Positions 31,292 to 46,677 of a stretch of DNA of 64,000 bases are shown here, in pieces. The position numbers were made by a program, and so were the translations under genes. This stretch comes from Hyphomonadaceae bacterium (GTDB lineage: Bacteria > Pseudomonadota > Alphaproteobacteria > Caulobacterales > Hyphomonadaceae). Location of the stretch: NCBI GenBank assembly GCA_027485145.1, contig JAIXRO010000113.1, forward strand, positions 1 through 64,000, given 5' to 3'. How positions within the stretch are numbered: position 1 is the stretch's first letter; every line of letters begins with the position of its first letter. The notes under the pieces were generated by a model, which was not told the DNA's origin, did not search any database, and worked only from the letters and a program-made list of their open reading frames with translations.

Positions 31292-33472
31292 TTAGAACTC
31301 TGCTACAAATCCAAAAGACAAAAGGCGTGGATTGCCGGCGAACAGGCCGTCCACTCGGCTGGAGATGTAGGCTTCGTCCGTGAGGTTCTCTACGGTCGCG
31401 AAGACGCGTAAATCGCTGCCCGGCAATCGAACATTGAGCGAAGCTCGCCAAAGTGTTCGGGCGGGGATCAGACCTGACAGCCCATCGGCGGATGGAATGC
31501 GCGTGTTGATCGCATTGGCAAACTGCTCGCCCAGATAATTCACGCCAATCTCGAGATCCGCGCCTTGAAGAATTCCCAACCGCAGAGCAACGTCGGCCAT
31601 ATGTTCCGGCGCATACGGAACGCGGTTGCCGCGCACACCGCTCGCACCGAGGTCAACGTCCGACTCCAAGCGCGCGGTCGCCAGATAGCTGTAGGCGCCC
31701 AGAAGCTTGACCGGGCCGAGCGTCCAGTCGCTGGACAATTCCAGACCCTGATGGAGCGCCTCGCCCGCGTTGACGAAACTGCCGCTGCGCCCGCCGACGA
31801 GAGCGCCCTCGACGATGATGTCTTCGAGCCGCATATCGAACAGCGTTGCTTCAAGGCGGCTGTCATTGGACGGCCTTAGACGAACACCGATTTCCGTTTC
31901 GGTACTCGTTTCGGATTTTACCCGCTTGAAAGGCGCGTTCGGGTCGAAGTCCCGGTCGGGCCGCGGCGGAGCGAACCCACGATGCACACCCGCGAAAACG
32001 GAGAGCTGATCGCTCGGTGCCCAGACGAGCCCGGCGCCCGGGAGCCAGATTGTTTCCTCAAGTTTCGCCGTGAGTCCGGTCGTGACGAAGTTGGCGGCCA
32101 GGGACGTGTTTGTCGTTTCGACCTGCTCAACGCGGATGCCCGGCGTCAATGTCAGGTCACCTCGTGTCCAAGCGGCAGTCAAGAAGCCCGAATAGGCGTT
32201 CGTCCGGATCTGGTTGTGATCGCGCAGCAAGGTGCCCGGCGTATCCTCGCGCGCGTCCGGCGTGAGGCCATTGTAGCGTTTGCGGTCTGTATCCTCGAAA
32301 TGGGCCCTGGCCCCCGCATCGAGCACTATGTCGCCGCCCAGTGCTTCGGTTTGCCATTGAAGGCGGGAATCAACGCCTTTGATCTCGAATGTTCGAGGGC
32401 GCATCTTGTTGCCGCAAAGCGGTGCGAACACTTCGTAGTTGGTGCGCGCAGCGCCCGTGCACCCTGTCGCAGGATTGGCGATCATGGGATCGATTGACGT
32501 GTCTGCCTGCCTGTAAGACGCGCGAAACAGGTCGGTTGTGTAAACCTGTGTTGCAAGGTTGAAGTCTGTATCTGGCGCCCAGGTGTACGCGAGCTGGGCA
32601 GACTTTCGGTCAAGATCGAAATGGTCATCTTTGAATGGATTATAATAAGGCGAGGTATCAAAGCGCGCCTGGTTGAGACCGCCTTCGGTAAGGCCCGTCG
32701 ACTCAACATAACTCCCAAGCTTCAGGTCCAGGGAGTGAGTTCCACCGAGATCGACTCGTGCACGTAGTACCGCGTCCGTTACGTCCGTATCGTGACCGTC
32801 GCGAATGCCGTCGACAGATTTCCGGGTCAGGAACATCCCCGCGCCATAGTTGTCATCGCCGCGGCCTAGCGCAAGATGGCTGGATGAGAAGCCGCGTTCG
32901 CCCGCTTCAAGGCGAAGCCGGGTAAGCGGACCGGCCGGCGCGGGTTGGGTCACGAAATTGATCATCCCGCCGACAGACTGCGGACCATAGGGAATTTGCC
33001 CCGACCCGCGCCGGAACTCGATGCGCTCAACGCGGTCGAGCGGTGGGTAGTAGTGCGCCGACGGATCGGCATAGGGCGCCGGCTGAATCGGAACCCCGTC
33101 CTCCATCAGAAGCGTGCGGCTGGACCGCCGCGGGTTGAGGCCGCGTACGGAAACATTCAGCTTGAGGCCAAGCGCGTCCTCCTCGACCACGGAGACGCCG
33201 GGCACCAACCGTAGCACTTCCTTCGCCGATTGAGGGTTCATCGCCTCAAGCCGGTCCTGGTCAACAATCGTCGCCGAACCCGGAAGCCGGCCGAGATCAT
33301 CCGGCAAGATGCCCGTCACGACGATGACTGAGGACGAAGCACTGACCGCGCCGGTTGGGACGACGGTCGCAGGAGACGTCGGCAAAACTGCGTCGGCCGA
33401 AGCCGGCAAACCGAGGGAAGTGGCCAGTCCCAGACTGACGCCGAGTCGCAGGCCTGGCCACTTCATCATCAT
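31292..33472 (-). CDS. TonB-dependent outer membrane receptor (FecA-like)
   Basis: Receptor of 726 residues with a signal peptide (to about 27). The TonB box region SSVIVVTGI precedes a plug domain (about 50-160: AKEVLRLVPGVSVVEEDALG, VRGLNPRRSSRTLLMEDGVP, IPYGPQSVGGMINFVTQP) and a 22-strand-type barrel ending GFVAEF with terminal Phe. Two Cys residues in an extracellular-loop region (TGCTGAA and PLCGNKM) could form a disulfide. The nearest style is FecA-like ferric-chelate receptors, but its start overlaps the phosphoesterase stop (TGATG), which points to a phosphorylated ligand or to metal recruitment for phosphatases. Confidence 0.9.
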   Translation of the reverse strand: MMMKWPGLRLGVSLGLATSLGLPASADAVLPTSPATVVPTGAVSASSSVIVVTGILPDDLGRLPGSATIVDQDRLEAMNPQSAKEVLRLVPGVSVVEEDALGLKLNVSVRGLNPRRSSRTLLMEDGVPIQPAPYADPSAHYYPPLDRVERIEFRRGSGQIPYGPQSVGGMINFVTQPAPAGPLTRLRLEAGERGFSSSHLALGRGDDNYGAGMFLTRKSVDGIRDGHDTDVTDAVLRARVDLGGTHSLDLKLGSYVESTGLTEGGLNQARFDTSPYYNPFKDDHFDLDRKSAQLAYTWAPDTDFNLATQVYTTDLFRASYRQADTSIDPMIANPATGCTGAARTNYEVFAPLCGNKMRPRTFEIKGVDSRLQWQTEALGGDIVLDAGARAHFEDTDRKRYNGLTPDAREDTPGTLLRDHNQIRTNAYSGFLTAAWTRGDLTLTPGIRVEQVETTNTSLAANFVTTGLTAKLEETIWLPGAGLVWAPSDQLSVFAGVHRGFAPPRPDRDFDPNAPFKRVKSETSTETEIGVRLRPSNDSRLEATLFDMRLEDIIVEGALVGGRSGSFVNAGEALHQGLELSSDWTLGPVKLLGAYSYLATARLESDVDLGASGVRGNRVPYAPEHMADVALRLGILQGADLEIGVNYLGEQFANAINTRIPSADGLSGLIPARTLWRASLNVRLPGSDLRVFATVENLTDEAYISSRVDGLFAGNPRLLSFGFVAEF

Positions 33473-36069
33473 CAGTCCTCGGATTTGCGGCCAACCGAGA
33501 GTACGCGTTCTGCGTCTTCTTCCTCGTCTTCGTCCTCATCCACAAAGAACGGGCTGAAGACGGCCGAAACCGGCTCGGGGTAGGCCGTGTCCCAACCTTT
33601 TATCTCGTGCCAGGTGATGCGATTGAGCAATGCGGACGGCACCGCATCGGGCACATCCCAGCGCATGGAAGCGGAGGCGATGGCGCCTTCCTTGCGTGGG
33701 CCGCTGAGAGCTTCCAGTTGCGGATTGAGTTCGAGCAGGTCCTGTTTCGGCGTGATGGCCGAATAAGGTGTCAGGTCCGGTGTATCGGTAAAGCTTGCCC
33801 GCATGTCGTTGGCGATGAGGTCGAACAGCGACAGGGTCGGCAGGCCGAGTTGCAGCTCGATCGTCTTCAGGATGCTGGGGTTTGAATAGAAGGTCGAGTC
33901 GACCGCGCCGCGCTTGGCATAAGGGCTGATGACAAGGCCGACCGTTCGGTGACCGTCCACGTGATCCACGCCGTTCTGAGCGTCATCTTCGATCACGTAG
34001 ATTGCCATCTTCGGCCAGAATTTCGACTTGCTCAGCGCCTCTACAACCATGCCGACGGCGAGGTCGTTATCTGCCACCATCGCCTTGGGCGATGTCATGC
34101 CGGGTGTGGTGCCGCTGGTATGGTCGGAGGGAAGCTGGAGGAGCGTGAGGTTCGGCATCTGACCTTTCGCCTCATATCCCTTTAGTTCATCAATGAAGCG
34201 CTGCGCGCGGACGACATCGGGTACGGCCATTGTGTAAGCCGGAAAGTCACGAACCAAGACGCTGTTGAGCGGTGGGATCGGCGAACGCGTGTCCCACAGG
34301 CCCTCGATCTTTTCGCCGGCCTTCCAGCGCTCCAGAAGCTCTACCCTTCCAGCCTGGTCCCAACCAAGGCGGGGGGCATACTCGCCAAAGACGGCTACGG
34401 ATTTGTCTTGTGCGAGGGCTGCGTCCCAGATGAAACCGCGGGCCGAATAGGCGAGGGGATCCGTGCCGTCGAAGGGATAGGATCTGCCCTGGTAGCCGGG
34501 CCATAGCGTGTAGCTCGGCTCATTCGCCTGGGTCAGCCATTGGTGACCATTCGCACTGTTGCCGCCGGTGGCGTACATGTTGTCGAGCAAGACGTAGTCC
34601 ATCGCCAGCTTGCGCTGGTTCGGGGCCACGTCTTCGCCGAACAGGACGAATTCCGGCTTTCCATTGCCGCGAGGCAGATCGCCGAACAGTTGGTCGTAGG
34701 TGCGGTTTTCCTTGATGATGTAGACCACGTGCTCGATGAGCGATGCTTCGCCGGCCCGTGACGGCACTGCGCGAGCTGGTGCGCGGCGATCAGCCGACAC
34801 CGACGGGGCTCCGCTGAAGGACATGCGATTGTTTTCCGCAACTGCGGCTGTGTAGCTGGCCAGTTGAGCTTCGCCGGGCAGGTCGATCACGTGAACGGTG
34901 CCGCGGTTGGCATGAACATAGCGATGGTCCGGGCCGTCTACGGAGGATCCTGAGCCAACGCCAAGCATCGTGCCGACCAGCAATTTGCCGCGCGCTGCGT
35001 CGAGCGCGAGGGTGTTCGGATACCATCCGGAAGGGATGAGACCGAGCACCCGGCCGCGTTTGGCTTCCAGCACGGCGACTGCGTTCACACCGCCAAGCGC
35101 TACGTAGAGGCGCTGCGTCGCCGGATCGAAGACCAGCGCCGTCGGTGCGACGCCGTCGATTTTGGTCGCGAACGGGCGCAGCTCGAACGTGCGAACCACC
35201 TTGCCGCGTTTGAGATCGATCACCGACACGGAGTCGTCATTCGTGTTGGCGACGAACAGCCGCTGACCGCCGGGATCAAGCGCAAGCGCCGTGGGATGGC
35301 GGCCGACCTGGATTGTGGCCGTGACTTTACCGCTTGCGAGATCCACGACAGAAATCGTGCCTTGCTTTGCAACGCCCATCGCGTCGATCCGAACTTTGTC
35401 TGCGGTGGGTTCAAGACCGGTCGGTGCGCTGGCTTCGGTGCCAGCAGCCAATTGGCCACCCCAATTCGCGACGTAGGCGGTTGTCTTGTCGACCGCGACC
35501 GCGACGGGTGCGATTCCGACCGGGATCTTTTGAACCTCGCCCGTCGCAGTGCTCACGACCGCAAGCTGGTTGTTGAACAGGAGCGGCACCAGCACGTTGT
35601 CTCCAAACCATGCCGGTGTACCCACGGCATGTGAACCAAGCGCGTTGCCAACAGTCTTGATTCCGCTGGCATCGGCGATCTCCAGACGAACCTCGGAGGG
35701 TTGGCCGGCGATCTGAACGGCGTGGGTGACGGCCACCCGCGCACCGCTGGCGTCCATGGCGAGGCCCCGCACACCGCGGTCGCCCGGCAGGTCATGGTCG
35801 GCGATCACTCTGTTGTCGCTGGGGTCAAGAAGCATGAGACGTTTGCGGTTCAGCGCCCACACGTCGCCATCGTTTGAAAAGCCCACAGAATAGACGGAAC
35901 TGTCGAACACGGTCTGCGCACCGGCAGGCGTGATGGCCTGGCGCGTGGTGACCACACCGGCGTCAGACACATTGCGTGTCGGCGCTGCGGTGGCTGCGGT
36001 CTGCGCGAACGAAGTCGGGATGAAGAGGCTAAAGGCCGCCGCGGCGACCAATACTGATCGGAGTTTCAT
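33472..36069 (-). CDS. YVTN beta-propeller fused to alkaline-phosphatase-superfamily phosphoesterase
   Basis: Secreted protein of 865 residues: signal peptide (to about 22), an N-terminal beta-propeller of YVTN-type repeats (for example VDLASGKVTATIQVGRHPTA then DDSVSVIDLKRGKVV) to about residue 440, and a phosphoesterase-family domain (VVYIIKENRTYDQLFG, NQRKLAMDYVLLDNMYATGG, EDDAQNGVDHVDGHRT). The latter belongs to the acid phosphatase/phospholipase C superfamily. The tail is strongly acidic, with eleven Asp or Glu residues in twelve (DEDEDEEEDAE) near the end. The ATG at 36069 follows AAGGAACC. It is coupled to the TonB receptor and follows phoD after 251 bases. It probably frees phosphate from organic esters in the periplasm. 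Confidence 0.88.
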   Translation of the reverse strand: MKLRSVLVAAAAFSLFIPTSFAQTAATAAPTRNVSDAGVVTTRQAITPAGAQTVFDSSVYSVGFSNDGDVWALNRKRLMLLDPSDNRVIADHDLPGDRGVRGLAMDASGARVAVTHAVQIAGQPSEVRLEIADASGIKTVGNALGSHAVGTPAWFGDNVLVPLLFNNQLAVVSTATGEVQKIPVGIAPVAVAVDKTTAYVANWGGQLAAGTEASAPTGLEPTADKVRIDAMGVAKQGTISVVDLASGKVTATIQVGRHPTALALDPGGQRLFVANTNDDSVSVIDLKRGKVVRTFELRPFATKIDGVAPTALVFDPATQRLYVALGGVNAVAVLEAKRGRVLGLIPSGWYPNTLALDAARGKLLVGTMLGVGSGSSVDGPDHRYVHANRGTVHVIDLPGEAQLASYTAAVAENNRMSFSGAPSVSADRRAPARAVPSRAGEASLIEHVVYIIKENRTYDQLFGDLPRGNGKPEFVLFGEDVAPNQRKLAMDYVLLDNMYATGGNSANGHQWLTQANEPSYTLWPGYQGRSYPFDGTDPLAYSARGFIWDAALAQDKSVAVFGEYAPRLGWDQAGRVELLERWKAGEKIEGLWDTRSPIPPLNSVLVRDFPAYTMAVPDVVRAQRFIDELKGYEAKGQMPNLTLLQLPSDHTSGTTPGMTSPKAMVADNDLAVGMVVEALSKSKFWPKMAIYVIEDDAQNGVDHVDGHRTVGLVISPYAKRGAVDSTFYSNPSILKTIELQLGLPTLSLFDLIANDMRASFTDTPDLTPYSAITPKQDLLELNPQLEALSGPRKEGAIASASMRWDVPDAVPSALLNRITWHEIKGWDTAYPEPVSAVFSPFFVDEDEDEEEDAERVLSVGRKSED

Positions 36070-36320
36070 GCTCTGGTTCCTTGATGGTGGGAGTGCGCCC
36101 GCGCGGCACGTGGCGGGCCGGAGACCCCCGGTTGAAGACATCGGTTGAAAAAGCGGTCAGTCGCCAAAGCGTTGTTGCCGTTAGTCCTCTTGGGAAACTT
36201 CGGGGCGCGCTCCTTTGTTTCTGGGCACGGGATCGCAAACCTCGAAGCCACGGCGCAGGTTGAGACCGCAAGCGGCTTCATGGAGAGCTTCCTTGTGACA
36301 ACTTTGTTGAAAGGAGAGAA

Positions 36321-37871
36321 TCAAAGGTCTTTGGTCCGCAGCGAGACGTCCGTGCGAACCGGCGAATCCTGGCGGCCGACGTCGTCGACAATCCGAAAAT
36401 CTGCGCTGCAGATTTCGGATGTGAACGTGGTGCGCAGATAGCCGCGCTGCTGGCCGTTCAAATGTCGGACGTGAGGGTTTGCAGCACGCATCTGTTCCAT
36501 GTCTCGGGCCCATGGACACCCGGAGGATATCGAGCTGCCGACCAATTCGTGGCCAATACGTTTGGAGCGGGTGTCGAATGGGTCCTGATGCAGCGTTGAC
36601 GCCATGGCCGTGTGCCAATCACCCGTTAGAAACACAGGATTCGAAACGTCAGAGGCGAGCATGTCGAGCATATCCTGCCGAGCGCCGGGATAGCCGTCCC
36701 AGCTGTCAAGATTGACAATCGGCGCCTCCGCCGGAGCGTTGTAGCGATATGGCGTCATCCAAACTTGAGTCGCCATGACGTTGAACGGCGCTGCAGAGCC
36801 ACGCAAAGTCTTCTTCAGCCAATTTTCCTGCTCCTTACCGAGCATCGTGCGGTCGGCCGCGAACGCCTCATCGCAGTAAGGCTTGCGGCCATCGCCGCAC
36901 GGCTGATCACTCCGGAACTGTCGCGTATCCAACATGTGAACTTGCGCCGGTCCAAACCGGTAGGCGCCAAAAAGTTGAAGTCGCGCTTTCAATCCGTCGA
37001 TGACGGGCGGTTTCTCGATTGGCATGTGTTCGTAATACGCCTGCAGCGCGGCGAGTTTGCGAACCATGAATTCGGCCTGGGTTTGTTTCTCGGGATCCTG
37101 GGGAACATTTGCGGCCCAGTTGTTGTCCACTTCGTGGTCGTCGAGACCGACGATCCAGGGCGCTGCGGCATGGGCGGCTTGGAGGTCAGGATCGGTGCGG
37201 TAGAGTGCGTGCCGATTTCGGTAGTCCCAAAGCGTTGTAATTTCGGCGCTATTGTGCAGGCGAACGGTTTCAAAGAGACGCCGCTCCCCACCCCCGACAG
37301 CTCGCATCTGAGCGCCTAGGGTGCCTGTGCCGCCCTCGTAGATGTAATCGCCCGTATGGATGACGCAGTCCGGCATCCATTCGGCAAGATCGCGATAAGC
37401 TGCATAGAAGCCTGCTTCATAGTGCTGGCAATAGGCGAGTGCGATCTTTGCTTCCGAAGCGTTTGGATCACTGGTCCGTGTACGCCCGATCGGGCTTTCA
37501 TCACCTGAATACGCAAACCGGTACCAATACTCGCGTCCGGGTTCCAGGCCGCGTGCCACAAAGTGAACGGAATGGGCTTCGGCGGGCCGCGCCAGAACTA
37601 TGTCATCGATGATGATGTTCGACATGTTCGCATCAAGTGCGACCCTTACTCGAACTTCGGCGGGCTCGTTTGCCATTCCGCCCCCGTTCAAAGGATCCGG
37701 TGCGAGGCGTGTCCACAAAACGACCTGGTTAGGGCGAGGTGAGCCGGATGCGACACCCAACGAAAAATAGCCGCCATTGGCTGCAGCCAGAGCCTTCTCT
37801 TCAAGAACGGACAGGCTCAGCAGTGCGCCTGAGGCTAAGATGAACGCGCGACGAGACAAGGTATGTTGCAT
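36321..37871 (-). CDS. phoD: Tat-exported PhoD-type alkaline phosphatase/phosphodiesterase
   Basis: PhoD-family enzyme of 516 residues. Arg7-Arg8 in LSRRAFILASGALL form a Tat signal, so it is exported folded with its metals. The metallophosphoesterase blocks are intact: HTGDYIYEGG, GLDDHEVDNNW and LTGDWHTAMAS. An N-terminal beta domain (about 35-140, VASGSPRPNQVVLWTRL) is usual for PhoD. Family members hydrolyse phosphodiesters and monoesters and use Fe/Ca centres. The start was placed at the Tat signal, after AAGGGG; the frame extends to 38021 without similarity. It lies downstream of the second TonB receptor but is separated by a terminator. Confidence 0.92.
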   Translation of the reverse strand: MQHTLSRRAFILASGALLSLSVLEEKALAAANGGYFSLGVASGSPRPNQVVLWTRLAPDPLNGGGMANEPAEVRVRVALDANMSNIIIDDIVLARPAEAHSVHFVARGLEPGREYWYRFAYSGDESPIGRTRTSDPNASEAKIALAYCQHYEAGFYAAYRDLAEWMPDCVIHTGDYIYEGGTGTLGAQMRAVGGGERRLFETVRLHNSAEITTLWDYRNRHALYRTDPDLQAAHAAAPWIVGLDDHEVDNNWAANVPQDPEKQTQAEFMVRKLAALQAYYEHMPIEKPPVIDGLKARLQLFGAYRFGPAQVHMLDTRQFRSDQPCGDGRKPYCDEAFAADRTMLGKEQENWLKKTLRGSAAPFNVMATQVWMTPYRYNAPAEAPIVNLDSWDGYPGARQDMLDMLASDVSNPVFLTGDWHTAMASTLHQDPFDTRSKRIGHELVGSSISSGCPWARDMEQMRAANPHVRHLNGQQRGYLRTTFTSEICSADFRIVDDVGRQDSPVRTDVSLRTKDL

Positions 37872-37914
37872 CGGGACGAAACCCCTTCGGCTTGGCTTTT
37901 GGTTCGCTTGGATC

Positions 37915-37951
37915 TGAAAAATCCGGGCGGCGAGGAAGGATCGCCGCCCGG
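37915..37951 (-). terminator. Rho-independent terminator after the TonB receptor gene
   Basis: A perfect 11-base stem, CCGGGCGGCGA (37923-37933) with TCGCCGCCCGG (37941-37951), loop of 7. Read on the minus strand it is followed by ATTTTT. It starts 18 bases after the stop of the receptor gene (37970), so phoD probably has its own promoter or depends on read-through. Confidence 0.85.
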
Positions 37952-37969
37952 TATAGAGTTGCCGTGCGC

Positions 37970-40624
37970 TTAGAACGAATACTCGTACTGGATCCAGAAG
38001 GACTGGGGTTTTCCGTTCCATCCGTACGTCGTGTAGTTGGATGCGTTGTTCACACCCGTCTCGTTGCGTACGACCGAACGATTGAGCGACTGGAACGCGC
38101 CAGCAGCGCCGCGTTCGAAATACTCCTCGTTCAGCAGGTTCACGCCGCGTACCAGGATGCGGTGCTGCTTGTCCTCTCCGAGGAAATATTGAACCGAGCC
38201 GTTAAGGACGAAGTATTCGCCGAAGTTCTGATCGGGTATCGAGCGGTTGCCGTTCGCATCGACCAGTCGCGCGGCAGTGCCACCCGCGTAGGCATATTCC
38301 GGTCCCTGGAGGCGCGGGTTGAGCGCAAGGACCAAACGGTCCGTCGGCTCGTAGGTGACAAGGGCCGACAACGACCATTCCGGGCGTTCGCCGGACTGCC
38401 GAAGAGGTTCGCTGCCAGCGATACCCGGTACGACTGTTCCTGCGAGGGCAAGTCCCGTTCCTTCGCGGATCTGCGACAGGCCAAAAGTCGGGTTGGGCTC
38501 AAGCGAGTCCATCGCCGTGAAGGTCAAGTCGGCAGCCCATTTGTCGAGGTCGACCGAGAGGTCGATGGTCCAGCCTTCGATCGCTTGAACAGCGTTCAGG
38601 TTCACAGCCACCTGGTCGCCGCTCGCGAGATTTTGCGAGGCTGCGTTGGCGCAGAAAGCATCTGGCGGCACGATGCTGCGACGGTTCGCGTTGATCGTGT
38701 CGAGGGTTTGTGCGCCGGACGACGGAGCGTTAGGTCCGCCCACGGCATATTGGGTGCAAACGGCGCCAAGAGCCCGGCTTCCAAATTGATTGAGGATGTC
38801 GGTCTGGAAGTACCCGAGTTCAAGGTTGTAGGTACCACCCATGATGTCGCCGTCGATACCGATACCGGCATTGAGGGCCTCGACGGACTGGGCTTCGAGG
38901 CCCGGGTTGATCTGCGCATTCGCGCCATAGACACCGATCTCGTCGATCTTCGGTGCCGAGTAAGACGTGCCGCCTGCGGCGCGGGCATAAATGCCGCCAC
39001 CGAAGTCTTGCCGCGCACTGGCTTTCCAGATCATCTCGTCTTCGAACGGATCGTTGAAGTCCTGCCGCGCCGCGAGCGAGCCGGAAAGACCGTCGAGAAG
39101 TTCGAAATTGTATCGAAGGTCACCGTAGAGGCCGATCGATGTCAGCGTTGCGTCCTGGACGCCAAAGGCCGAGTCTGAAGCATCCTCGTACCCAGTGTAC
39201 TGGACGCCGCCGACAACTTCAAAATTGTCGTTGATCTCATAGGTGGCCCGGGCATTTACGCCGTAGTCATTATAGCCCGAGGCGCGGTTGTCGCGTGAGC
39301 CGAAACCTTTGACCGGATTGCCGTTGCCGAAGCTGGTGACCGTTTCACTTGCATATCCAATCGGTGCGCCGATCGGGAAGGGGTTCTCGGGAGTGCCGTA
39401 GCGCTGGCCAAAGAATGGGCTTCCGGGAACCTGGTTGACCTGCCAGCCCTGACGCGCGAGCGAGGCGGATTGGTTGATCGTACCCGGATTGGTGACGCAT
39501 CCAGTCGGGAAGTTGATCGATCTTGCAAAGGCTTCAAACTGAGCGGCAGTGGTGAAGTTCGTGATGCCGCGACCGCGAGCCGTGGCTTCGACCGCTGCCG
39601 GAAGATCCGTGACCCGAGGAATGGTGCAGATCTGCGGAACGAGTTCGATGTTGCGCAGGCGGGGAAGCTGATAGTGTCCCTCGACTTCGAACTTCAGGGT
39701 GTCGCTGATCTGGTTTTCGTAGCTTGCCGTGTAGATCGGGAACTCGGTGAAGTTCGGGGTATAGACCGTGCTTGTCGGGAAGCTGTCGTGGAAGTCGACC
39801 GTGGAGTAACCCGCGCCCAGGCGAAACTCTTGGGCGGCATCGATTTGCCAGAGATACTTAATCCCGAGACTATTGAAGTCGTACGGGTAGGCTTGGTAAC
39901 CGCCGAGAGCCTGCACGTTCTCGCCATACGCTTCCGGATCAAACAATTCATGGGCGTCGGATTTGTAGGAGCGGCCATAGACCATGACGCTGTGCTTTCC
40001 GGCTTCGTCGAGCGGGAAGGACATGTTGCCGTACAGTTCGCGTGTCTTGAACGAGCCGCCATAAAAGCCGAACTGGCCCTTGGTCGTGCCATCCGGCTCC
40101 TTCAGCCTGACGTTCACAACGCCGAGGCCGCCGTTTGATCCGAAGTAGAGCGACTGTCCGCCGCGGAAAACCTCAACCGACTCGATCATGCGCGGGTCGA
40201 TGGCTGTTGCTGGCCACAGATCTTCGCTGGGCGAAGACCGGTCGAAATAGGGAACGCCATCAACGAGCAGAAGCGTGTCGCGGTCGGTGCCGCCATCAAT
40301 GCGGATCGTGAATTCGCCTTCATCGGGCGAGTAGCCGACGTTGGCGCCGCGGATCAGGCCAGCGGCGAGTTCGCCGAAGTTCGTGAAACCACCGGTCAAG
40401 ATTTCATCATCGCTGATGATCTGGACCTGCGTGCCGGACTTCGCGAGCTCAGCGGCGAGCGGGCTGGCTTCTGCGTCGACCTGTTGGCCTTCAACGCGAA
40501 TGGTTTCGACGCGGCGAAGTGCTGCGTCTTCGGTTTCGGTTTGAGCGACAGCCGACGGAATCGCCGTTGACGCGAGCAGCGCGCCAATGCCGGCGCGGAT
40601 GGTGAAATTGGAAAATGTTTTCAT
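37970..40624 (-). CDS. TonB-dependent outer membrane receptor
   Basis: Receptor of 884 residues with a signal peptide (residues 1-28, ending SAVAQ), a TonB-box-like VETIRVEG (about 37-44), a plug (EFTIRIDGGTDRDTLLLVDG, IESVEVFRGGQSLYFGSNGG) and a barrel ending QYEYSF with terminal Phe. Several Cys pairs sit in likely surface loops (QICTIPR, TGCVTNP, GAVCTQY, AFCANAA). It differs strongly from the FecA-like receptor at 31292, so the two should take different ligands. It is the first gene leftward from the divergent control region shared with the HAD gene. Confidence 0.9.
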   Translation of the reverse strand: MKTFSNFTIRAGIGALLASTAIPSAVAQTETEDAALRRVETIRVEGQQVDAEASPLAAELAKSGTQVQIISDDEILTGGFTNFGELAAGLIRGANVGYSPDEGEFTIRIDGGTDRDTLLLVDGVPYFDRSSPSEDLWPATAIDPRMIESVEVFRGGQSLYFGSNGGLGVVNVRLKEPDGTTKGQFGFYGGSFKTRELYGNMSFPLDEAGKHSVMVYGRSYKSDAHELFDPEAYGENVQALGGYQAYPYDFNSLGIKYLWQIDAAQEFRLGAGYSTVDFHDSFPTSTVYTPNFTEFPIYTASYENQISDTLKFEVEGHYQLPRLRNIELVPQICTIPRVTDLPAAVEATARGRGITNFTTAAQFEAFARSINFPTGCVTNPGTINQSASLARQGWQVNQVPGSPFFGQRYGTPENPFPIGAPIGYASETVTSFGNGNPVKGFGSRDNRASGYNDYGVNARATYEINDNFEVVGGVQYTGYEDASDSAFGVQDATLTSIGLYGDLRYNFELLDGLSGSLAARQDFNDPFEDEMIWKASARQDFGGGIYARAAGGTSYSAPKIDEIGVYGANAQINPGLEAQSVEALNAGIGIDGDIMGGTYNLELGYFQTDILNQFGSRALGAVCTQYAVGGPNAPSSGAQTLDTINANRRSIVPPDAFCANAASQNLASGDQVAVNLNAVQAIEGWTIDLSVDLDKWAADLTFTAMDSLEPNPTFGLSQIREGTGLALAGTVVPGIAGSEPLRQSGERPEWSLSALVTYEPTDRLVLALNPRLQGPEYAYAGGTAARLVDANGNRSIPDQNFGEYFVLNGSVQYFLGEDKQHRILVRGVNLLNEEYFERGAAGAFQSLNRSVVRNETGVNNASNYTTYGWNGKPQSFWIQYEYSF

Positions 40625-40781
40625 GACCTGGACCTTGATCAACCCCTCAAAGACCGCCGGACATCGACGACCCGCAGAAGACCTCCCGCGCGCCGGGCGA
40701 GGGAGCTCATCACTGAACGATTAGTTAACGGCGGCGACAGTTGCGTGAACACTTAGTAAAACAATTATGAACCCTATTTAC

Positions 40782-40803
40782 TTTCATGAGAAAATACATT
40801 GAA
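40782..40803. promoter_or_regulatory. Candidate operator in the receptor/HAD divergent region
   Basis: TTTCATGAGAAA (40782-40793) runs directly into ATACATTGAA (40794-40803). Both elements recur in the rpiR/phnD divergent region as TTTCATTTGAAA and ATACATTGAA. The region between 40733 and 40830 is AT-rich against the local background. TGAA/TTCA dyads fit sites of RpiR-family regulators, one of which is encoded 0.8 kb away. Inference only. Confidence 0.45.
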
Positions 40804-40846
40804 CCAAACTCAATATGGACGTTTCGATGAGGTTGAGTTGAAAACG

Positions 40847-41620
40847 ATGATCTCCCGGCTGAGCCCGAGCCATGAGCTGCTTGACCCGGTCGCCGAGGCG
40901 CGCGGCTTCCTGATCGACTGGGACGGTTGCTGCGCGCTCGAAAACAGGCTGCTTCCCTCGGCGGTCCGGTTCCTGAAGGCAAACGCTCCGCGTACGGTCA
41001 TCGTGTCGAACAACTCCTCGAACACGGCGGAGGATTTTCAGCGCATCCTCGCAAAGTCGGGGGTTGAGATGCGCCTTGACCAGATCATTCTTGCCGGGGT
41101 CGAAGCGCTCGCGCGCGCGGCCCAATCCGGTTCGTCGCGCACTTTGGTGCTTTCTGATCCGCGCATGCGATTTCTTGCGCGCCGCATGGGTGTCGCAATG
41201 ACATCTGAGCGGCCTGAACTCATCGTGCTATTGCGTGACACGCGTTTTACCTACCCGCGTCTCGAGGCCGTCGTGAACGCGATGGCCGGTCAAGCCCGGT
41301 TGATCGTGTCAAATCCGGACGTGACCCATCCCGGCAGGGCGGGGCATCTCCAGCCGGAAACCGGCGCGCTGCTCGCCGCCATCAAGGCATGTGTCGCCAT
41401 ACCCGAGGATCGGCTCGAGATCATCGGAAAGCCCAATCCGTCGCTCTTTCTGAAGGGGTGCTCGGTTCTGGGGCTCGAGCCGTCATCGGTCGTTATGATT
41501 GGGGACAATCCAGCCACAGATATCGCCGGTGCCGAAGCCGTCGGGATGCATGGATTGCTGGTAACGCCAGGTCCTGAACAGTTCTTCCGTACGCTCGTGC
41601 AGACGCTCAAAATCGTTTGA
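40847..41620 (+). CDS. HAD-superfamily class IIA (NagD-like) phosphatase
   Basis: Cytoplasmic phosphatase of 257 residues from the ATG at 40847. HAD motif I is LIDWDGCC (nucleophile Asp24 and acid/base Asp26), motif II IVSNNSSN, motif III KPNPSLF and motif IV MIGDNPATDIAGAEA. The cap between motifs II and III is the IIA type of NagD and AraL, which act on sugar phosphates and nucleotides. The DxDG is followed by Cys-Cys where relatives usually have Thr or Val. A TTG start at 40799 would add 16 residues but overlaps the candidate operator. It is convergent with the RpiR gene (14-base overlap). Confidence 0.87.
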   Translation: MISRLSPSHELLDPVAEARGFLIDWDGCCALENRLLPSAVRFLKANAPRTVIVSNNSSNTAEDFQRILAKSGVEMRLDQIILAGVEALARAAQSGSSRTLVLSDPRMRFLARRMGVAMTSERPELIVLLRDTRFTYPRLEAVVNAMAGQARLIVSNPDVTHPGRAGHLQPETGALLAAIKACVAIPEDRLEIIGKPNPSLFLKGCSVLGLEPSSVVMIGDNPATDIAGAEAVGMHGLLVTPGPEQFFRTLVQTLKIV

Positions 41621-42509
41621 GCGAAAGGACATTGAAGGTCTTCTGCAGCACCTCGACGGAGTGCTCGTAATCGTCGAGTGCAATGGCGGCGACGAGCGTA
41701 TCGAGCACGCAGAGCTGCGCGATCCGGCTGGTCATGGCTTCGGTCCTGAATTTCGTTTCGCGCGCCATCGTGAACAGTTTGATGTCGGCAAATGCCTGCA
41801 GCGGCGAGCTGGCAAAGTTCGTGACCACGATCGTCTTGGCGCCTGCCTCTTTTGCGAGCCGTGTTGCAGCAAGCGTTTCGTGGGTTGCGCCCGAATGCGA
41901 GATAGTAAGGACGGCAACATTGGGGCCGGTGCGCGATGCACTGATCGCCTGGATATGGCTGTCGGTCACAACTTTCACATTGAGCCCGATACGGAGCATT
42001 CGGTATTGCGCATCTTCTGCGATCGGTGCGGATGATCCGATACCGTATATCTCAATGCGCTCGGCCGCCCTGATGATCTTCACGGCCGCTGCAATCGCAT
42101 CCGGATCGAGGACCGAAAGTGTATCGCGCAAGGCCTGAACACCGGCATGGAACATCTTGCGGCAAACGGCCGACGCATCATCCGTCGGTTGGAGGTCCTC
42201 ATGAATGAACTGTACGGGTTTGACGGTTTCTTGCGCCAGACTGAGTTTTAGCTGCTGGAAGCCTGAAAGCCCAAGCTGGCGGCAAAAGTTGATGACGCTG
42301 CCATCACTTGCGCCGGTTGCCTCTGCCAGTTCGGTAACCGACATCCCCACGACCTGGCTGGGATTGTCGAGCACGAAGCTTGCGATCGAACTGGTGCTCG
42401 GTCCCAGGCTCGCCTGGCGAACGCGAATGCGCGAGATAACGTTGTCTATCGGCGACGTGTCCGGCCGCCGGTTGACTGGAAGGGTTGTTCGCGGCTTTCG
42501 ACCTGCCAT
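41607..42509 (-). CDS. RpiR/MurR-family regulator with SIS domain
   Basis: Regulator of 300 residues: an N-terminal HTH_6 domain (about 25-100, SIASFVLDNPSQVVGMSVTE then LAEATGASDGSVINFCRQLG) and a SIS sugar-phosphate-binding domain (about 130-265, AERIEIYGIGSSAPIAEDAQ then TISHSGATHETLAATRLAKE). Family members bind phosphosugars and control their catabolism or uptake. Upstream of its start are TGAAAGTCTTTCA (42509-42521), TGAATAAATTTCA (42549-42561) and TTTCATTTGAAA (42557-42568), good candidate self-operators. It is divergent from the PhnDCE-type transporter. Confidence 0.9.
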   Translation of the reverse strand: MAGRKPRTTLPVNRRPDTSPIDNVISRIRVRQASLGPSTSSIASFVLDNPSQVVGMSVTELAEATGASDGSVINFCRQLGLSGFQQLKLSLAQETVKPVQFIHEDLQPTDDASAVCRKMFHAGVQALRDTLSVLDPDAIAAAVKIIRAAERIEIYGIGSSAPIAEDAQYRMLRIGLNVKVVTDSHIQAISASRTGPNVAVLTISHSGATHETLAATRLAKEAGAKTIVVTNFASSPLQAFADIKLFTMARETKFRTEAMTSRIAQLCVLDTLVAAIALDDYEHSVEVLQKTFNVLSLKRF

Positions 42510-42568
42510 GAAAGTCTTTCAGTTCGCTAGAGCAATCCTAGGATACATTGAATAAATTTCATTTGAAA
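42509..42568. promoter_or_regulatory. Cluster of candidate RpiR operators in the rpiR/phnD divergent region
   Basis: Three dyads are seen: TGAAAG-T-CTTTCA (42509-42521, perfect, touching the rpiR start codon), TGAA-N5-TTCA (42549-42561) and TTTCA-TT-TGAAA (42557-42568, overlapping the previous one). ATACATTGAA (42543-42552) is identical to 40794-40803. The arrangement suggests repression of rpiR itself and control of the transporter genes. Confidence 0.5.
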
Positions 42569-42712
42569 GCCGATTATCTGAATTATTGTCATCGCGCCGT
42601 CATGCGCTGCTGTTAACGAATGAGCGAAGCCCTGCCATCGTTTCGCAGGGGTGCGGGCGCGGTCCGGAGCGAAAGCCCGGGGCTGCATCGCCGCCGGTGC
42701 CGGGAGGATTTG

Positions 42713-43660
42713 ATGGCCAACCGTGTGACGCTCTGGCTGCTTGGATGCTGCATGGCGGTATTGGCCGCTTGCGGTTCGCCGCCCGCCTCAAACTCTGACT
42801 CTGGAAACACGCCAGTCCAGCCGTTGCGGGTCTTGCTGATCCCCGCGGATGGGGGGACCGAGGACGGCACGAAAGCGGACTTCAAGCCATTGTTCGACGC
42901 ACTCTCGCACGCCACGGGGTTGGCTTTTGATGTGCGGGTCGGACAGAGTTACGCGGCGGTGATCGAGGGTATGTGCGCCGGCCACGCCGACATCGCTTGG
43001 TTTGGTCCGGTGTCATATGTTGAGGCGCGCGATCGGGGGTGCGCAGAGCTGCTCGCCATCGAAGAAACCTCAGGCTCCACAACTTACTATGCCGGACTGT
43101 TCGTGCGCGCGTCCTCAGATATCGAGACGGTCGCACAACTTTCCGGGCACACACTGGCGCTGGGATCGAGCCATTCTGCGAGCAGCTTTGCCTTTCCGCT
43201 CGCACTTCTGAAGGCTGCGAACGTTGATCCGCTCACTGACTTAAAAGCTTTGAGACTCACTGAAAGTCACACGCAAAGCCTGATGGCGCTTCAAAGCGGA
43301 GACGTTGACGCGGCTGGTGCGTCTTTGACATCGTTCGAACGTGCCTTGAATCAGGGCGGACTGGACGCATCAAACTTTCGCATCCTTGCCCGGTCTGACC
43401 GCATACCAAATCCTCCGCTTGCTGTGAGCAGGCGGTTGCCCGACGATGTCAAGGCGACTTTGCGAGCCGCGCTCGGCAAACTCCATGAAACGGCTGGCAT
43501 CGATCCGAACGCAATTCGAGGATATGGGGGCAAGCGCGTTGATCGGTATGTTACCCAATTCGACGAAGCAGAGATTGATAAGGCGTTCGAAGGGATCGCG
43601 TTTGTCGACGAGGAATTGAAGGCGGCGCTGCTGCGCAAGGCCGGCGGGGTTCAGCAGTAG
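42713..43660 (+). CDS. phnD: PhnD-type ABC transporter substrate-binding lipoprotein
   Basis: Periplasmic binding lipoprotein of 315 residues. Lipobox LAAC gives Cys20 as the lipid site. The PhnD/phosphate-phosphite-phosphonate binding fold follows: PLRVLLIPADGG, then GHADIAWFGPVSYVEARDRG, HTLALGSSHSASSFAFPLAL and LMALQSGDVDAAGASLTS. GSSHSASS takes the place of the usual xSxSG phosphonate loop. GGGAGGATTTG-ATG fixes the start. The ligand could be phosphate ester, phosphonate or phosphite; no C-P lyase or phosphonatase genes lie in the window. It is the first gene of a four-gene operon. Confidence 0.85.
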   Translation: MANRVTLWLLGCCMAVLAACGSPPASNSDSGNTPVQPLRVLLIPADGGTEDGTKADFKPLFDALSHATGLAFDVRVGQSYAAVIEGMCAGHADIAWFGPVSYVEARDRGCAELLAIEETSGSTTYYAGLFVRASSDIETVAQLSGHTLALGSSHSASSFAFPLALLKAANVDPLTDLKALRLTESHTQSLMALQSGDVDAAGASLTSFERALNQGGLDASNFRILARSDRIPNPPLAVSRRLPDDVKATLRAALGKLHETAGIDPNAIRGYGGKRVDRYVTQFDEAEIDKAFEGIAFVDEELKAALLRKAGGVQQ

Positions 43661-44518
43661 ATGGCGCGGCGTTGGGTTGGAACGGGCGCGCCCGGGGGCA
43701 CCGGGTCTTCCGGCCGGGAAGGCTCGGCTTTGGATGCCGGCAGAGCAGCGAAACTTTTGTCCTGCCGTGAGCTTGTGAAAGCTTACGGTGAAGGTTCGCC
43801 TGCACTCGCCGGGGTTTCTTTCCAGATTGATACACCGGGGTTCACGGTTCTTCTCGGGTCGTCTGGTTCGGGCAAGACGACGCTGCTGCGCGCCATTGCC
43901 GGGCTGGTTCCGCTTGATTCTGGAGAGATTCAGGTCGACGGACTGGCAATGACGGGTGCAAATCTTGCCAGCGTGCGCCGCCGCCTCGGCATGGTACATC
44001 AGGAGTTCGCTCTGGTCGAGCGTTTGACATCGCTGCAAAATGTTCTGTCCGGCGCAGCGGCACAGTTGTCGTGGCCTCGCCTTGTCTGTCAGGCCTATCC
44101 GGATGACCTCCGCCGCCGCGCTTGCCAGTTGCTGGCCGATGTCGGGCTGACGGAAGCTCAGGCGAACCGCAAGGCGCGCGAACTGTCGGGCGGCCAGCGT
44201 CAGCGGGTCGGTATCGCGCGCGCCCTGATCGGGCAGCCGCGACTTTTCCTTGCAGATGAGCCGGTCGCCAATCTCGACCCGGAGACCGCTTCTGGACTTC
44301 TGACGCTTCTGCGCGAGGCCGTCACAAGCCGCGGGATCGGCGTGCTGTGCAGCCTTCATCAGACCGACCTTGCCCTTCGCTACGCGGACCGGATCATTGG
44401 ACTGAAGGCAGGGCGGATTGTTTTTGACGGCCCTCCGGAAGCATTCACACCGGCTGTGGCATCGACCCTTTTCGCGCGCGATGGGGCGCCGCATGCCCTG
44501 ACCGTGGCCGCGGCCTGA
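43661..44518 (+). CDS. phnC: PhnC-type ABC transporter ATP-binding protein
   Basis: ATPase of 285 residues. Walker A is GSSGSGKT (residues 66-73), the Q-loop VHQEFALVERLT, the signature LSGGQRQRVGIARAL, Walker B LFLADEPVANLDP, and the switch His lies in CSLHQTDLALRYADR. The VHQEFxLVERLTxLxNVLxG pattern is typical of the PhnC branch. The first 30 residues are Gly/Ser-rich and unlike relatives; the ATG directly follows the phnD stop and translation is probably coupled, but a later start near residue 31 is possible. Confidence 0.88.
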   Translation: MARRWVGTGAPGGTGSSGREGSALDAGRAAKLLSCRELVKAYGEGSPALAGVSFQIDTPGFTVLLGSSGSGKTTLLRAIAGLVPLDSGEIQVDGLAMTGANLASVRRRLGMVHQEFALVERLTSLQNVLSGAAAQLSWPRLVCQAYPDDLRRRACQLLADVGLTEAQANRKARELSGGQRQRVGIARALIGQPRLFLADEPVANLDPETASGLLTLLREAVTSRGIGVLCSLHQTDLALRYADRIIGLKAGRIVFDGPPEAFTPAVASTLFARDGAPHALTVAAA

Positions 44519-44519
44519 C

Positions 44520-45554
44520 ATGTCCGTTCAAGCCCTTGACGATCGAACCAGCTCAAACGACCGCCCCCCTGAAGCCTGGCGGCTGAAGCCGGTGTTCGAT
44601 GTGCGCGCCGTTGTGCTGGCGGGGCTTGCGACGATCCTGCTCGCCTATTCCGCGCAGCGCCTTGATCTTGGCCGTCTGTTTGGCGACGTGGGGGCGTTCA
44701 TTCTTGCTTCTGCCGGATTGCAAGAGCGTTCTGACATTGGAGACGGGCTGTCTGGCCTTTCCGCAGGCATGTTCCCGATCGTCATTGACGAGCGCACGCC
44801 TGTCGAATTTGTGGGCGACCTTGACGCGCGCCTCGCTTCGCCGCTTGCCCGTCTCGAGACAGTCGCCATCGAAGAAACGGAGCTTGATGCGAACACGCTT
44901 GAGATGGTCGAGCGCGTGGGCGCAAAGACCTACCTTGTCGAGCCTGCCGGGTATCTCTTTTTCGTGCTTCTCAAGATGCTCGAGACATTCGAAATTGCGC
45001 TCTGGGCGACGTTGTTTGCAATTGCGGTCAGTCTGCCGCTTTCCGTACTTTGTGCACGGAATTACTCACCTCATGTTTTGATTTACGGGGCGGGCCGGAC
45101 GTTCGTTGCGTTCCTGCGATCTGTACCTGAACTCATCAGTGCGCTGTTTCTTGTCCTGGCATTCGGGTTTGGACCAATCCCCGGAATTGTCGCGCTCGCC
45201 ATTCACAGCATCGGGTTTCTCGCAAAATTCTTTGCTGAAGATATCGAAGCGGCTGACCCGCGCCCGCAGGAAGCGATCGCGGTCACGGGGGCCAGCCGAT
45301 TTGCGGTGCTTCGCCTGGCCGTGATTCCAAACGTGCTCGCGAGCTTCACCGGGCTATCGCTCTACATCCTCGACCGCAACGTCCGGATGGCAACGGTCAT
45401 CGGTCTCGTCGGCGCCGGGGGCATCGGACAAGAGCTGAAGGGACGCTTCGACATGTTCCAGTATGACAGGGTCGGCACCCTGCTGCTTGTAATCTTCCTC
45501 ACGGTTCTTCTGCTTGATGGGCTTTCCGCGCGCATCCGGCGGCGCCTGATCTGA
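44520..45554 (+). CDS. phnE: PhnE-type ABC transporter permease with enlarged first periplasmic region
   Basis: Permease of 344 residues. One membrane helix (about 29-43) is followed by a long soluble stretch (about 70-145, rich in Glu and Asp), then five or more helices. These carry the permease core: FEIALWATLFAIAVSLPLSV, FVAFLRSVPELISALFLVL, the EAA-type loop EAIAVTGASRFAVLRLAVIP, and VGAGGIGQEL near the end. PhnE proteins are usually about 260-290 residues, so roughly 60 residues are extra. It starts one base after the phnC stop. Confidence 0.85.
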   Translation: MSVQALDDRTSSNDRPPEAWRLKPVFDVRAVVLAGLATILLAYSAQRLDLGRLFGDVGAFILASAGLQERSDIGDGLSGLSAGMFPIVIDERTPVEFVGDLDARLASPLARLETVAIEETELDANTLEMVERVGAKTYLVEPAGYLFFVLLKMLETFEIALWATLFAIAVSLPLSVLCARNYSPHVLIYGAGRTFVAFLRSVPELISALFLVLAFGFGPIPGIVALAIHSIGFLAKFFAEDIEAADPRPQEAIAVTGASRFAVLRLAVIPNVLASFTGLSLYILDRNVRMATVIGLVGAGGIGQELKGRFDMFQYDRVGTLLLVIFLTVLLLDGLSARIRRRLI

Positions 45555-45564
45555 CGGAGCCATC

Positions 45565-46677
45565 ATGATCAAGTTTTTGCTGACAATCGCGACTTTGAGT
45601 GTGTCTGGAATTTTCGGCTCCGCGGTCGCGGAGCCGGCGAGCCAGAAACTCCCGGAAATCTTGGGTTACACGCTGGAAGGGGAGCGGCTTTCCTTGCCGA
45701 CCGACCTGGCCGCGCCGGCGACGCTGATCGTCATCGTCGAGGAAGATCCGTTCGCTGAAGATCTTGGCAGTTGGCGGAAGCTGTCATTCCAGCTCGAAGG
45801 CGAGGTTCCAGCGCTTTTCCTGGTTACGATGGGAAGCAAGCGCGGCTTGTCACGCTCCATGGCGGCTGGCCGTCTGAGGGCCGAGGTGCAAGACCCGGCG
45901 TTTCGGGCGAACCTCGTTCCGGTGTTTCAGGACGGCGGTGAACTGCGCGGCGGTCTCGACATTGCGTCCAGCTCCCGCGTCTCGGCGGTTTTGGTGAACC
46001 AGTCAGGCGAGGTTGTCTGGCGGGCACGAGGTCCAGCCGGCGACGCGGCTATCGACGAACTTCGGTCGAGCCTTCAGGCTCCGCTCCAACAAAAGCAGGT
46101 TACAGCCGTGCCCTTCGCCACAGTTGTTGATCAGACCGCCTTGACCGTGACTGACGCAATAGCTGCACCCGCACCCGCACCCGCACCCGCACCCGCACCC
46201 GCACCCGCGCCCGAGCCCACGCCCACGCTTACCGAACCGACTGTTGACGAGCGGGCAATCACGCCGCCAAGGATGCCGGCAATCGACGGCGTGACGCTTG
46301 CCGGCCTTAGTGTTTCGATGCCGAACGACCTTGGCAAAGACGGAACGCGTTTGATTCTCGTCCCTGATCACGCGGGCCATGATGTTCTTGTCGCCACGCT
46401 GTCCGAGGCTGAGACGGCCGGGACCGATGACACCTCAGATTGGTACGTACTGCTCTTCATGGGCAAATCGCAGCGTTTTGGGAAAGCGGTTGCAGCGGGG
46501 CAACTCAGAGCGAAACTTGAGTCGCCCCTTTGGCGCGAGCACGTCATACCTGTTTACATGGAACTCTCGACGTTCGAAAAGCTTGCTGGATTGGAATTCG
46601 GAGTCGGCAAGCGCGTTGTCATGGCAACAAAGGAAGGCGCGCTGGTGGTGTCAGAGCAAGCGACCTTGAGACGGTGA
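45565..46677 (+). CDS. Secreted protein with two copies of an unnamed thioredoxin-like domain joined by an Ala-Pro linker
   Basis: A 370-residue protein with a signal peptide (to about 22). Domain A (about 28-172) and domain B (about 236-370) are homologous: MAAGRLRAEVQDPAFRANLVPV in A aligns with VAAGQLRAKLESPLWREHVIPV in B. Each copy starts with I.G.TL.G..LS.P.DL and ends with SR/KRV.......G.VV. Strand order and the ending VSAVLVNQSGEVVWRARG recall redox-inactive thioredoxin folds, but there is no Cys pair. The linker (about 200-225) is Ala-Pro repeats. Lying 10 bases after phnE, it is probably a periplasmic part of the transporter operon. Family not recognised. Confidence 0.72.
   Translation: MIKFLLTIATLSVSGIFGSAVAEPASQKLPEILGYTLEGERLSLPTDLAAPATLIVIVEEDPFAEDLGSWRKLSFQLEGEVPALFLVTMGSKRGLSRSMAAGRLRAEVQDPAFRANLVPVFQDGGELRGGLDIASSSRVSAVLVNQSGEVVWRARGPAGDAAIDELRSSLQAPLQQKQVTAVPFATVVDQTALTVTDAIAAPAPAPAPAPAPAPAPEPTPTLTEPTVDERAITPPRMPAIDGVTLAGLSVSMPNDLGKDGTRLILVPDHAGHDVLVATLSEAETAGTDDTSDWYVLLFMGKSQRFGKAVAAGQLRAKLESPLWREHVIPVYMELSTFEKLAGLEFGVGKRVVMATKEGALVVSEQATLRR
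46165..46206 (+). repeat. Tandem hexanucleotide repeat GCACCC x7
   Basis: Seven perfect copies of GCACCC followed by one GCGCCC, in frame, encoding alternating Ala-Pro in the linker of the two-domain secreted protein. Gain or loss of units would change linker length without a frameshift. Confidence 0.9.

Follow-up and report, generated by a model that had tools for sequence, protein, structure and literature searches.

Genes of the locus and their layout

The window analysed here is a stretch of 64,000 nucleotides from a Hyphomonadaceae bacterium (GenBank assembly GCA_027485145.1, contig JAIXRO010000113.1), which stands as contig C170 in a genome of 3.98 Mb that is 96% complete and that we read as a Hyphomonas. 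Positions 31292 to 46677 of the window hold ten genes that appear to make up a locus for the uptake of organic phosphate. TonB-dependent receptors (TBDRs) are mostly named importers of iron, vitamins or sugars, and at this locus two of them lie among phosphatases, a regulator and an ATP-binding cassette (ABC) transporter of the PhnDCE type. A first-pass annotation, made from the sequence alone, had listed two unlike receptors (TBDR1 and TBDR2), a PhoD, a propeller-phosphoesterase (PropPE), a HAD phosphatase, an RpiR regulator, PhnD, PhnC and PhnE, and a secreted two-domain protein (SecX); all ten genes are present at the coordinates first given, and the families named agree with profile searches (Table 1).

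TBDR2, PhoD, PropPE and TBDR1 are read leftward from 40624 and HAD rightward from 40847, RpiR leftward from 42509, and PhnD, PhnC, PhnE and SecX rightward from 42713. These opposed directions imply a divergent promoter region between TBDR2 and HAD and another between RpiR and PhnD. The hairpin between TBDR2 and PhoD suggests that PhoD may be subject to attenuation or be transcribed from a separate promoter; hairpins of this type are not enriched (14 matches found, 17 expected from shuffles).

Table 1. Features of the locus, by position in the window
Feature	Position	Strand	Basis
TBDR1, FecA-like TonB-dependent receptor, rare accessory	31292..33472	-	PF00593, PF07715
PropPE, YVTN beta-propeller fused to PF04185 phosphoesterase, exported, rare accessory	33472..36069	-	profile matches
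PhoD-family phosphatase/phosphodiesterase, twin-arginine signal	36321..37871	-	PF09423, 334 bits
Terminator-like hairpin between TBDR2 and PhoD	37923..37951	-	11 pairs then ATTTTT, consensus match only
TBDR2, core TonB-dependent receptor	37970..40624	-	plug PF07715, conserved family A1
Putative RpiR operator 1, TTGAACCAAACTCAA, TBDR2/HAD divergent promoter	40799..40813		pattern and conservation
HAD-IIA-like cytoplasmic phosphatase, DxD motif intact	40847..41620	+	profile matches, motifs by eye
RpiR/SIS transcription regulator	41607..42509	-	PF01418, PF01380
Putative RpiR operator 2, TTGAATAAATTTCAT, one mismatch, RpiR/PhnD divergent promoter	42548..42562		pattern and conservation
Pho-box-like direct repeat, TTGTCATCGCGCCGTCAT	42586..42603	+	2 mismatches to CTGTCAT-N4-CTGTCAT
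PhnD-family lipoprotein binding protein, distinct clade (PADGGTEDG ... RGYGG)	42713..43660	+	PF12974, TIGR01098
PhnC-like ABC ATPase	43661..44518	+	profile matches
PhnE-like ABC permease	44520..45554	+	TIGR01097, 252 bits, over cut-off
SecX, secreted two-domain protein, rare accessory	45565..46677	+	10 bases after phnE

In TBDR1 both the plug and the barrel domain are recognised, with a FecA-like profile; in TBDR2 the plug alone scores above cut-off, and no relative was found in the PDB at 1e-5. PhoD opens with a twin-arginine start read by eye as SRRAF, scores well above the gathering score of PF09423 (334.1 bits against 27), misses the narrower NF058638 equivalog (452 against 1000) and has alkaline phosphatase D (2yeq) as its nearest solved structure. 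HAD matches the Pfam families Hydrolase_6 and Hydrolase_like, with catalytic motifs that are intact by eye, and misses the TIGR01460 (HAD-IIA) cut-off (77.0 against 100.15 bits); inspection by eye found no signal peptide. PhnD, the only match to its family in the window genome, exceeds the cut-off of TIGR01098, the phosphate/phosphite/phosphonate binding subfamily (167.2 against 112.05 bits). Measured against the phosphonate equivalogs, PhnD and PhnC fall short (TIGR03431, 165.0 against 261.1 bits; TIGR02315, 235.5 against 266.1) and PhnE scores above (TIGR01097, 252.1 against 216.7).

Conservation of the core and of its promoters

Co-occurrence was surveyed in 61 genomes, the window's own and 60 relatives. 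A PhnD search matches 38 of them; 25 (the window genome included) carry a member of the window's clade, 46-100% identical, and the other 13 hold distant members of the family only (E 6e-22 or weaker). TBDR2 is present in 26 genomes, the same 25 and in addition G023, where it occurs alone of the two and touches a contig end, and 35 genomes hold neither. Across the 24 other genomes with the clade PhnD, the block TBDR2-HAD-RpiR-PhnD-PhnC-PhnE keeps its order and strands in 22. The order is PhnDCE-RpiR-HAD-TBDR2 in G050 (locus L054), and in G053 (L053) TBDR2 lies downstream of PhnDCE, with neither HAD nor RpiR found in the stretch. PhoD follows TBDR2 in 15 of the 24 relative stretches, and in G050 too once a further stretch is read.

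The gene set that the first-pass annotation had treated as one system holds together in part: its core recurs, with TBDR1 and PropPE beside TBDR2 found in four genomes and SecX in two. TBDR1 adjoins PropPE in the window, in G023 (L062/L153), in L064 and in G050 (L152), and full-length PropPE, found in 3 of the 61 genomes (G000, G023 and G050), is always next to TBDR2 and TBDR1. The G050 stretch retains the window order TBDR2-PhoD-PropPE-TBDR1 (best segments 48-59% identical), its PropPE copy carrying one in-frame stop; G045 gives a partial, weak PropPE match. TBDR1 and PropPE are true but rare accessories. That the neighbourhood is a chance gathering of unrelated genes is hardly credible: TBDR1, PropPE and SecX are indeed missing from most relatives, yet co-occurrence and conserved order refute chance clustering for the core, an argument that does not cover SecX.

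Moreover, named genomes were scanned with a TBDR2 alignment, and the best 80 of 98 confirmed loci, together with the window, give 81 loci in which neighbours were called by tblastn (more than 70 bits, within 6.5 kb of TBDR2). These loci were found through two TBDR2 peptides and are a non-random sample whose genomes overlap with the set of 61; a contig end lies less than 3 kb from TBDR2 in 14 of them. TBDR2 is distributed over Alpha- and Gammaproteobacteria, the loci coming from Hyphomonas, Henriciella, Ponticaulis, Woodsholea, Sphingomonadales and many Gammaproteobacteria. Metagenome-assembled genomes under labels such as Acidobacteria bacterium, Sulfopaludibacter or Klebsiella pneumoniae (L061, L062, L100, L113 and L122) have a proteobacterial locus and look mislabelled.

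At least one exported phosphoesterase stands near TBDR2 in 77 of the 81 loci, the types overlapping: PhoD in 33, phospholipase C in 28, PHP proteins of a first type in 25 and of a second in 17, and PropPE in 3. In L072, L074, L076 and L113 none was found within 6.5 kb. The six phospholipase C neighbours tested, of 28, all score 848-903 bits against TIGR03396 (cut-off 580), and all four PHP proteins tested give CehA/McbA metallohydrolase matches below the family cut-off. PhnD is present at 47 of the loci and missing from 34. The wider unit is TBDR2 with a phosphoesterase, to which PhnDCE-HAD-RpiR is an addition.

PhnD is mostly accompanied by a phosphatase and a regulator. The 47 PhnD-bearing loci hold HAD-IIA in 34 cases and HAD-IA in 3 (a HAD of either kind in 37), RpiR in 42 and LysR in 3 (one or the other in 45); the 34 loci without PhnD hold none of the four within 6.5 kb, and although 12 of these lie near contig ends, the 22 with full flanks also score zero. 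HAD-IIA and RpiR are both swapped for HAD-IA and LysR in L109, L132 and L133 (profile searches cover both genes of L132 and the HAD of L109, tblastn the remainder), so the phosphatase is retained while the gene changes. A Novosphingobium plasmid (L157) bears RpiR, TBDR2, PhnDCE, phospholipase C and PhoD together.

Both divergent promoters of the locus contain the palindrome TTGA-N7-TCAA, which is probably the operator of RpiR. The form TTGA-N7-TCA recurs in 31 of 35 TBDR2/HAD regions (mean of dinucleotide shuffles 1.45), in 28 of 31 RpiR/PhnD regions (1.17) and in 9 of 15 regions between RpiR and TBDR2, the arrangement of Sphingomonadales (shuffle mean 0.61). The strict palindrome was found at 41 sites in 41 genus genomes; a hand tally places 30 in the TBDR2/HAD and RpiR/PhnD promoters and 9 elsewhere, the remaining 2 falling in unmapped genomes, and a reversed control pattern gave 9 matches in all. 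One unmapped site, in G095, is in the TBDR2/HAD region of L061, and the other, in G093, fits the place of L071. A regulon beyond the locus was considered and set aside, the 9 strict sites elsewhere equalling the 9 of the reversed control.

A Pho-box-like sequence, which the first-pass annotation had not noticed, is present and has similar counterparts in relatives. The element in the window, TTGTCATCGCGCCGTCAT, lies about 40 bases past the start of the RpiR/PhnD operator and is a direct repeat whose units recur every 11 bases; CTGTCAT-N4-CTGTCAT is the form of a PhoB site in excerpts of PMC3465305 and PMC3131613. A loosened form of the element occurs in 26 of 31 RpiR/PhnD regions (shuffle mean about 0.3), in 15 of 15 RpiR/TBDR2 regions (about 0.1) and in 6 of 35 TBDR2/HAD regions (about 0.3), and since the pattern was loosened after the alignment had been seen and the regions are related, not independent, this conservation counts as support and not as proof. 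With the consensus unloosened the signal is weaker: when the fewest mismatches in each region are set against 60 shuffled versions of it, the share of shuffles doing no worse averages 0.42 for RpiR/PhnD, 0.15 for RpiR/TBDR2 and 0.63 for TBDR2/HAD. A PhoB above cut-off is present in the window genome, and control of the locus by PhoB in phosphate shortage is probable. The window also holds, at 62347-63548, a cluster of response-regulator receiver domains with partial matches to the PhoB profile.

Binding pocket and candidate cargo

The structure model of PhnD is confident (predicted local distance difference test, pLDDT, 90.7) and has PtxB as its closest structures, a fold comparison that resolves the family only. 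The clade has motifs of its own, PADGGT..GT and RGYGG. Excerpts of PMC12718374 describe for characterised relatives an amine pair in PhnD (Glu177/Asp205), a glycerol pair in GpxB (Arg223/Thr247) and a cap in PtxB (Tyr208), together with residues around the phosphate head that align with Tyr125, Ser155/Ser157 and His186 of the window protein. Counted from the phosphate histidine, the tail-side positions are Glu +20 and Asp +48 in PhnD (3n5l), Arg +24 and Thr +48 in GpxB, and Tyr +48 in PtxB, this tyrosine being taken to be Tyr208. The window PhnD has Thr206 (+20), Arg210 (+24) and Pro234 (+48). Over a gap-free stretch, all 47 loci have Pro at +48, and 31 carry Arg and 16 Lys at +24; an acidic residue stands at +20 in 23, comprising 17 of 17 loci with phospholipase C and 6 of 30 others. 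The pocket residues of the clade match no characterised PhnD relative in full.

This comparison bears directly on phosphonate uptake, in which PhnDCE would import 2-aminoethyl- or methylphosphonate and HAD would act on a breakdown product. Membership of the PhnD/PtxB family is what this explanation would expect, as are the PhnY/PhnZ-like genes of one locus, L110, and the LysR of L132, which matches the aminoethylphosphonate-associated profile TIGR03339 (1.5e-84, 283.6 bits) below its cut-off of 341.1. However, Thr206 and Pro234 replace the amine pair Glu177/Asp205 of the 2-aminoethylphosphonate binder (23 of the 47 loci combine an acidic 206 with Pro234), Pro234 replaces the PtxB tyrosine, and the neighbours are mostly phosphate-ester hydrolases. 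The two HAD-IAs tested, of L109 and L132, resemble phosphoglycolate phosphatases by score (174 and 132 bits, cut-off 180) far more than phosphonatases (33 and 28 bits). A carbon-phosphorus (C-P) lyase pathway is rejected for lack of any match to PhnJ (PF06007) in the 96%-complete window genome, with an E. coli control detected, in agreement with the first-pass annotation, which had seen no C-P lyase. Phosphonate uptake is on these grounds an improbable explanation of the locus.

Rather unlikely, and a special case of uptake with cytoplasmic dephosphorylation, is a glycerol-3-phosphate or glycerol-1-phosphate route like that of GpxBCD with an outer-membrane receptor added. GpxB, a PhnT-family protein, binds both esters at about 1-2.5 uM according to excerpts of PMC12718374, its Arg223 has a counterpart in Arg210 (the Arg or Lys of the other loci standing at the same place), and HAD-IIA relatives include glycerol-3-phosphate phosphatases. 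On the other hand, Pro occupies the place of Thr247 throughout the 47 loci, the arginine is shared with 3n5l and is not diagnostic of GpxB, and GpxB is a distant relative (E 9e-16 by profile, 3e-6 with the window protein alone).

The third alternative, inorganic phosphate or phosphite as the cargo of PhnDCE, would leave all dephosphorylation to the periplasm and make HAD a housekeeping enzyme. The export signal of PhoD, the existence of TBDR2 modules without PhnDCE and the phosphite-binding nearest structures of PhnD speak for it; against this, the tyrosine of the phosphite binders is missing, and in the 81 loci HAD and RpiR are seen only with PhnDCE and share with it a common operator core. 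We regard this alternative as unlikely.

We consider a lipid-headgroup or glycerol-type phosphate ester the most likely cargo, and that of the window's Hyphomonas clade may differ from that of the phospholipase-linked clade. We think that the phospholipase-linked clade may take the phosphate of a cationic headgroup and that the ester taken by the Hyphomonas clade may have an uncharged tail. The association of an acidic residue 206 with phospholipase C was weighed as evidence for a cationic headgroup and put aside as weak, as one change accounts for it in a tree built from 27 of the 47 PhnDs, which makes it a single event.

Proposed route and its standing

We place at roughly 0.7 the probability that the locus serves an RpiR-controlled, and probably also PhoB-controlled, uptake of a small phosphomonoester that is then dephosphorylated in the cytoplasm. 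From the gene content, the conserved linkage, the co-occurrence and the shared sequence elements we infer phosphorus scavenging by the locus, with steps of transport, catalysis and regulation as follows. Larger phosphodiesters would be cut by exported phosphoesterases (PhoD and PropPE in the window) to yield a phosphorylated alcohol or headgroup, a step that in relatives PHP-type enzymes or a phosphocholine-type phospholipase C would perform. Energised by TonB, TBDR2 would move the phosphorylated piece or its precursor over the outer membrane, the PhnD-clade protein would pass the phosphomonoester to PhnC/PhnE, and the HAD phosphatase would liberate phosphate in the cytoplasm. The SIS domain of RpiR would sense a phosphorylated form and RpiR would control both divergent promoters, with PhoB control in phosphate shortage probably added on top.

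An outer-membrane-to-cytoplasm route for a phosphorylated compound had been proposed in the first-pass annotation, and its backbone is supported by co-occurrence, gene order, the coupling of HAD and regulator to the ABC transporter and the shared operator; TBDR1, PropPE and SecX are rare accessories to it. By all genomic signs this would be a real, conserved and jointly controlled locus for organic-phosphate uptake. Its parts are ordinary, and what sets it apart is that one locus would lead from a TonB receptor by way of a new PhnD clade to a phosphatase in the cytoplasm.

Several observations weigh against uptake of a phosphomonoester with cytoplasmic dephosphorylation. The clade PhnD was not found elsewhere (E 1e-10) in the genomes of 32 of the 34 PhnD-less loci, whose completeness is not stated (L062 and L064 were omitted for their contig ends), so TBDR2 and phosphoesterases can exist without the inner-membrane part; 7 of these 32 genomes have distant PhnDs only. 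Neither HAD-IIA nor HAD-IA was found within 6.5 kb in 10 of the 47 PhnD-bearing loci, namely L110 and nine others that are all from Sphingomonadales. On the Asticcacaulis excentricus plasmid pASEM-1 (L156, NZ_AP018829.1), which is outside the 81 loci, a 21-kb stretch holds RpiR, TBDR2, PhoD and phospholipase C and gives no match to PhnDCE, and L085 and L098, which lack PhnD, give weak RpiR-family matches (40-43 bits, under the limit of 70), so the link of RpiR to PhnDCE is not strict. L110 has a PhyH dioxygenase and an HD protein like methylphosphonate hydroxylase and PhnZ, below the equivalog cut-offs. In the promoters, near-operators number 18 in the window against 13.9 expected, which is not above chance, so that the operator argument rests on conservation and not on the single sequence; the strict palindrome has no match in the window's own genome; Pho-box matches with up to 3 mismatches number 2 in the window against 2.8 expected, within chance; and the Pho-box-like conservation carries the post hoc loosening described above.

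Two of these loci merit separate description. The gammaproteobacterial L110 (11847-15902) has a divergent PhnDCE, its PhnD being the least window-like (40% identity), and PhnY-/PhnZ-like oxygenases that adjoin TBDR2, a PHP enzyme and PhoD; it may represent a phosphonate-oxidising form of the system. We read the cytoplasmic end of the transporter clade as usually freeing phosphate, mostly by ester hydrolysis and perhaps by C-P cleavage in L110. The distant PhnD of L145 (1222-2187), the one tested of the seven, is GpxB (450 bits to 9lf9); this genome has TBDR2 and phospholipase C with no clade PhnDCE, and GpxB lies elsewhere in it, perhaps as part of another inner-membrane route.

Compared with known systems, the locus resembles GpxBCD, the glycerol-1-/3-phosphate transporter, in having a PhnD-type binding protein and being, as proposed, a phosphate-ester importer with Arg at the place of Arg223; in contrast, its PhnD belongs to another clade, with Pro for Thr247, and its transporter genes are linked to those of an outer-membrane receptor, of RpiR and HAD and of exported phosphoesterases (compared with excerpts of PMC12718374). 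The fold and phosphate-head residues are common to PtxB, PhnD and HtxB, whereas the tail-side residues of the window protein are unlike each characterised type. Flavobacterium PusCD, in the portions of PMC8115612 available, likewise clusters TonB-dependent import with phosphodi- and monoesterases, and some PusCD clusters also hold phosphonate enzymes and inner-membrane organic-phosphorus transporters; however, PusCD is of the SusC/SusD type and from Bacteroidetes, whereas the window locus has RpiR and a HAD phosphatase, and a profile search found no SusD match among its ten proteins. Headgroup catabolism in Phaeobacter MED193 (PMC10132767) shares the response to phosphorus shortage, the use of headgroups and an RpiR gene in one cluster, but employs PhoX and other transporters, and the sections available mention no such receptor-PhnDCE locus.

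No account of this locus was found in the literature searched, outside which lay most subscription journals and bioRxiv. It is a tentative and somewhat doubtful proposition that the locus represents the first complete TonB-to-cytoplasm route for intact phosphomonoesters in Proteobacteria: an RpiR/PhoB-controlled module in which a receptor and a PhnD clade of new specificity would import phospholipid headgroup phosphates, of the phosphocholine/phosphoethanolamine type in the phospholipase-linked clade and a different ester in the Hyphomonas clade, with phosphate not stripped in the periplasm. If a receptor family found in both Alpha- and Gammaproteobacteria belongs with phosphoesterases, many genes now named simply TonB-dependent receptor could be reassigned to phosphorus. 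Further, a PhnD clade with its own pocket, regulator, operator and phosphatase would open organic-phosphorus uptake without prior phosphate release to direct tests.

Finally, SecX was described in the first-pass annotation as a new two-domain secreted protein, and it matches no family over cut-off and no PDB entry better than E 0.2. Among 40 other genus genomes one homologue was found, in G095 (the L061 locus), also after phnE, so that two genomes in all have SecX in this position. Its structure model is poor (pLDDT 46). The two halves of SecX are homologous to each other (E 2e-12), and the succession of strands and helices predicted for each half might point to a thioredoxin-like fold.

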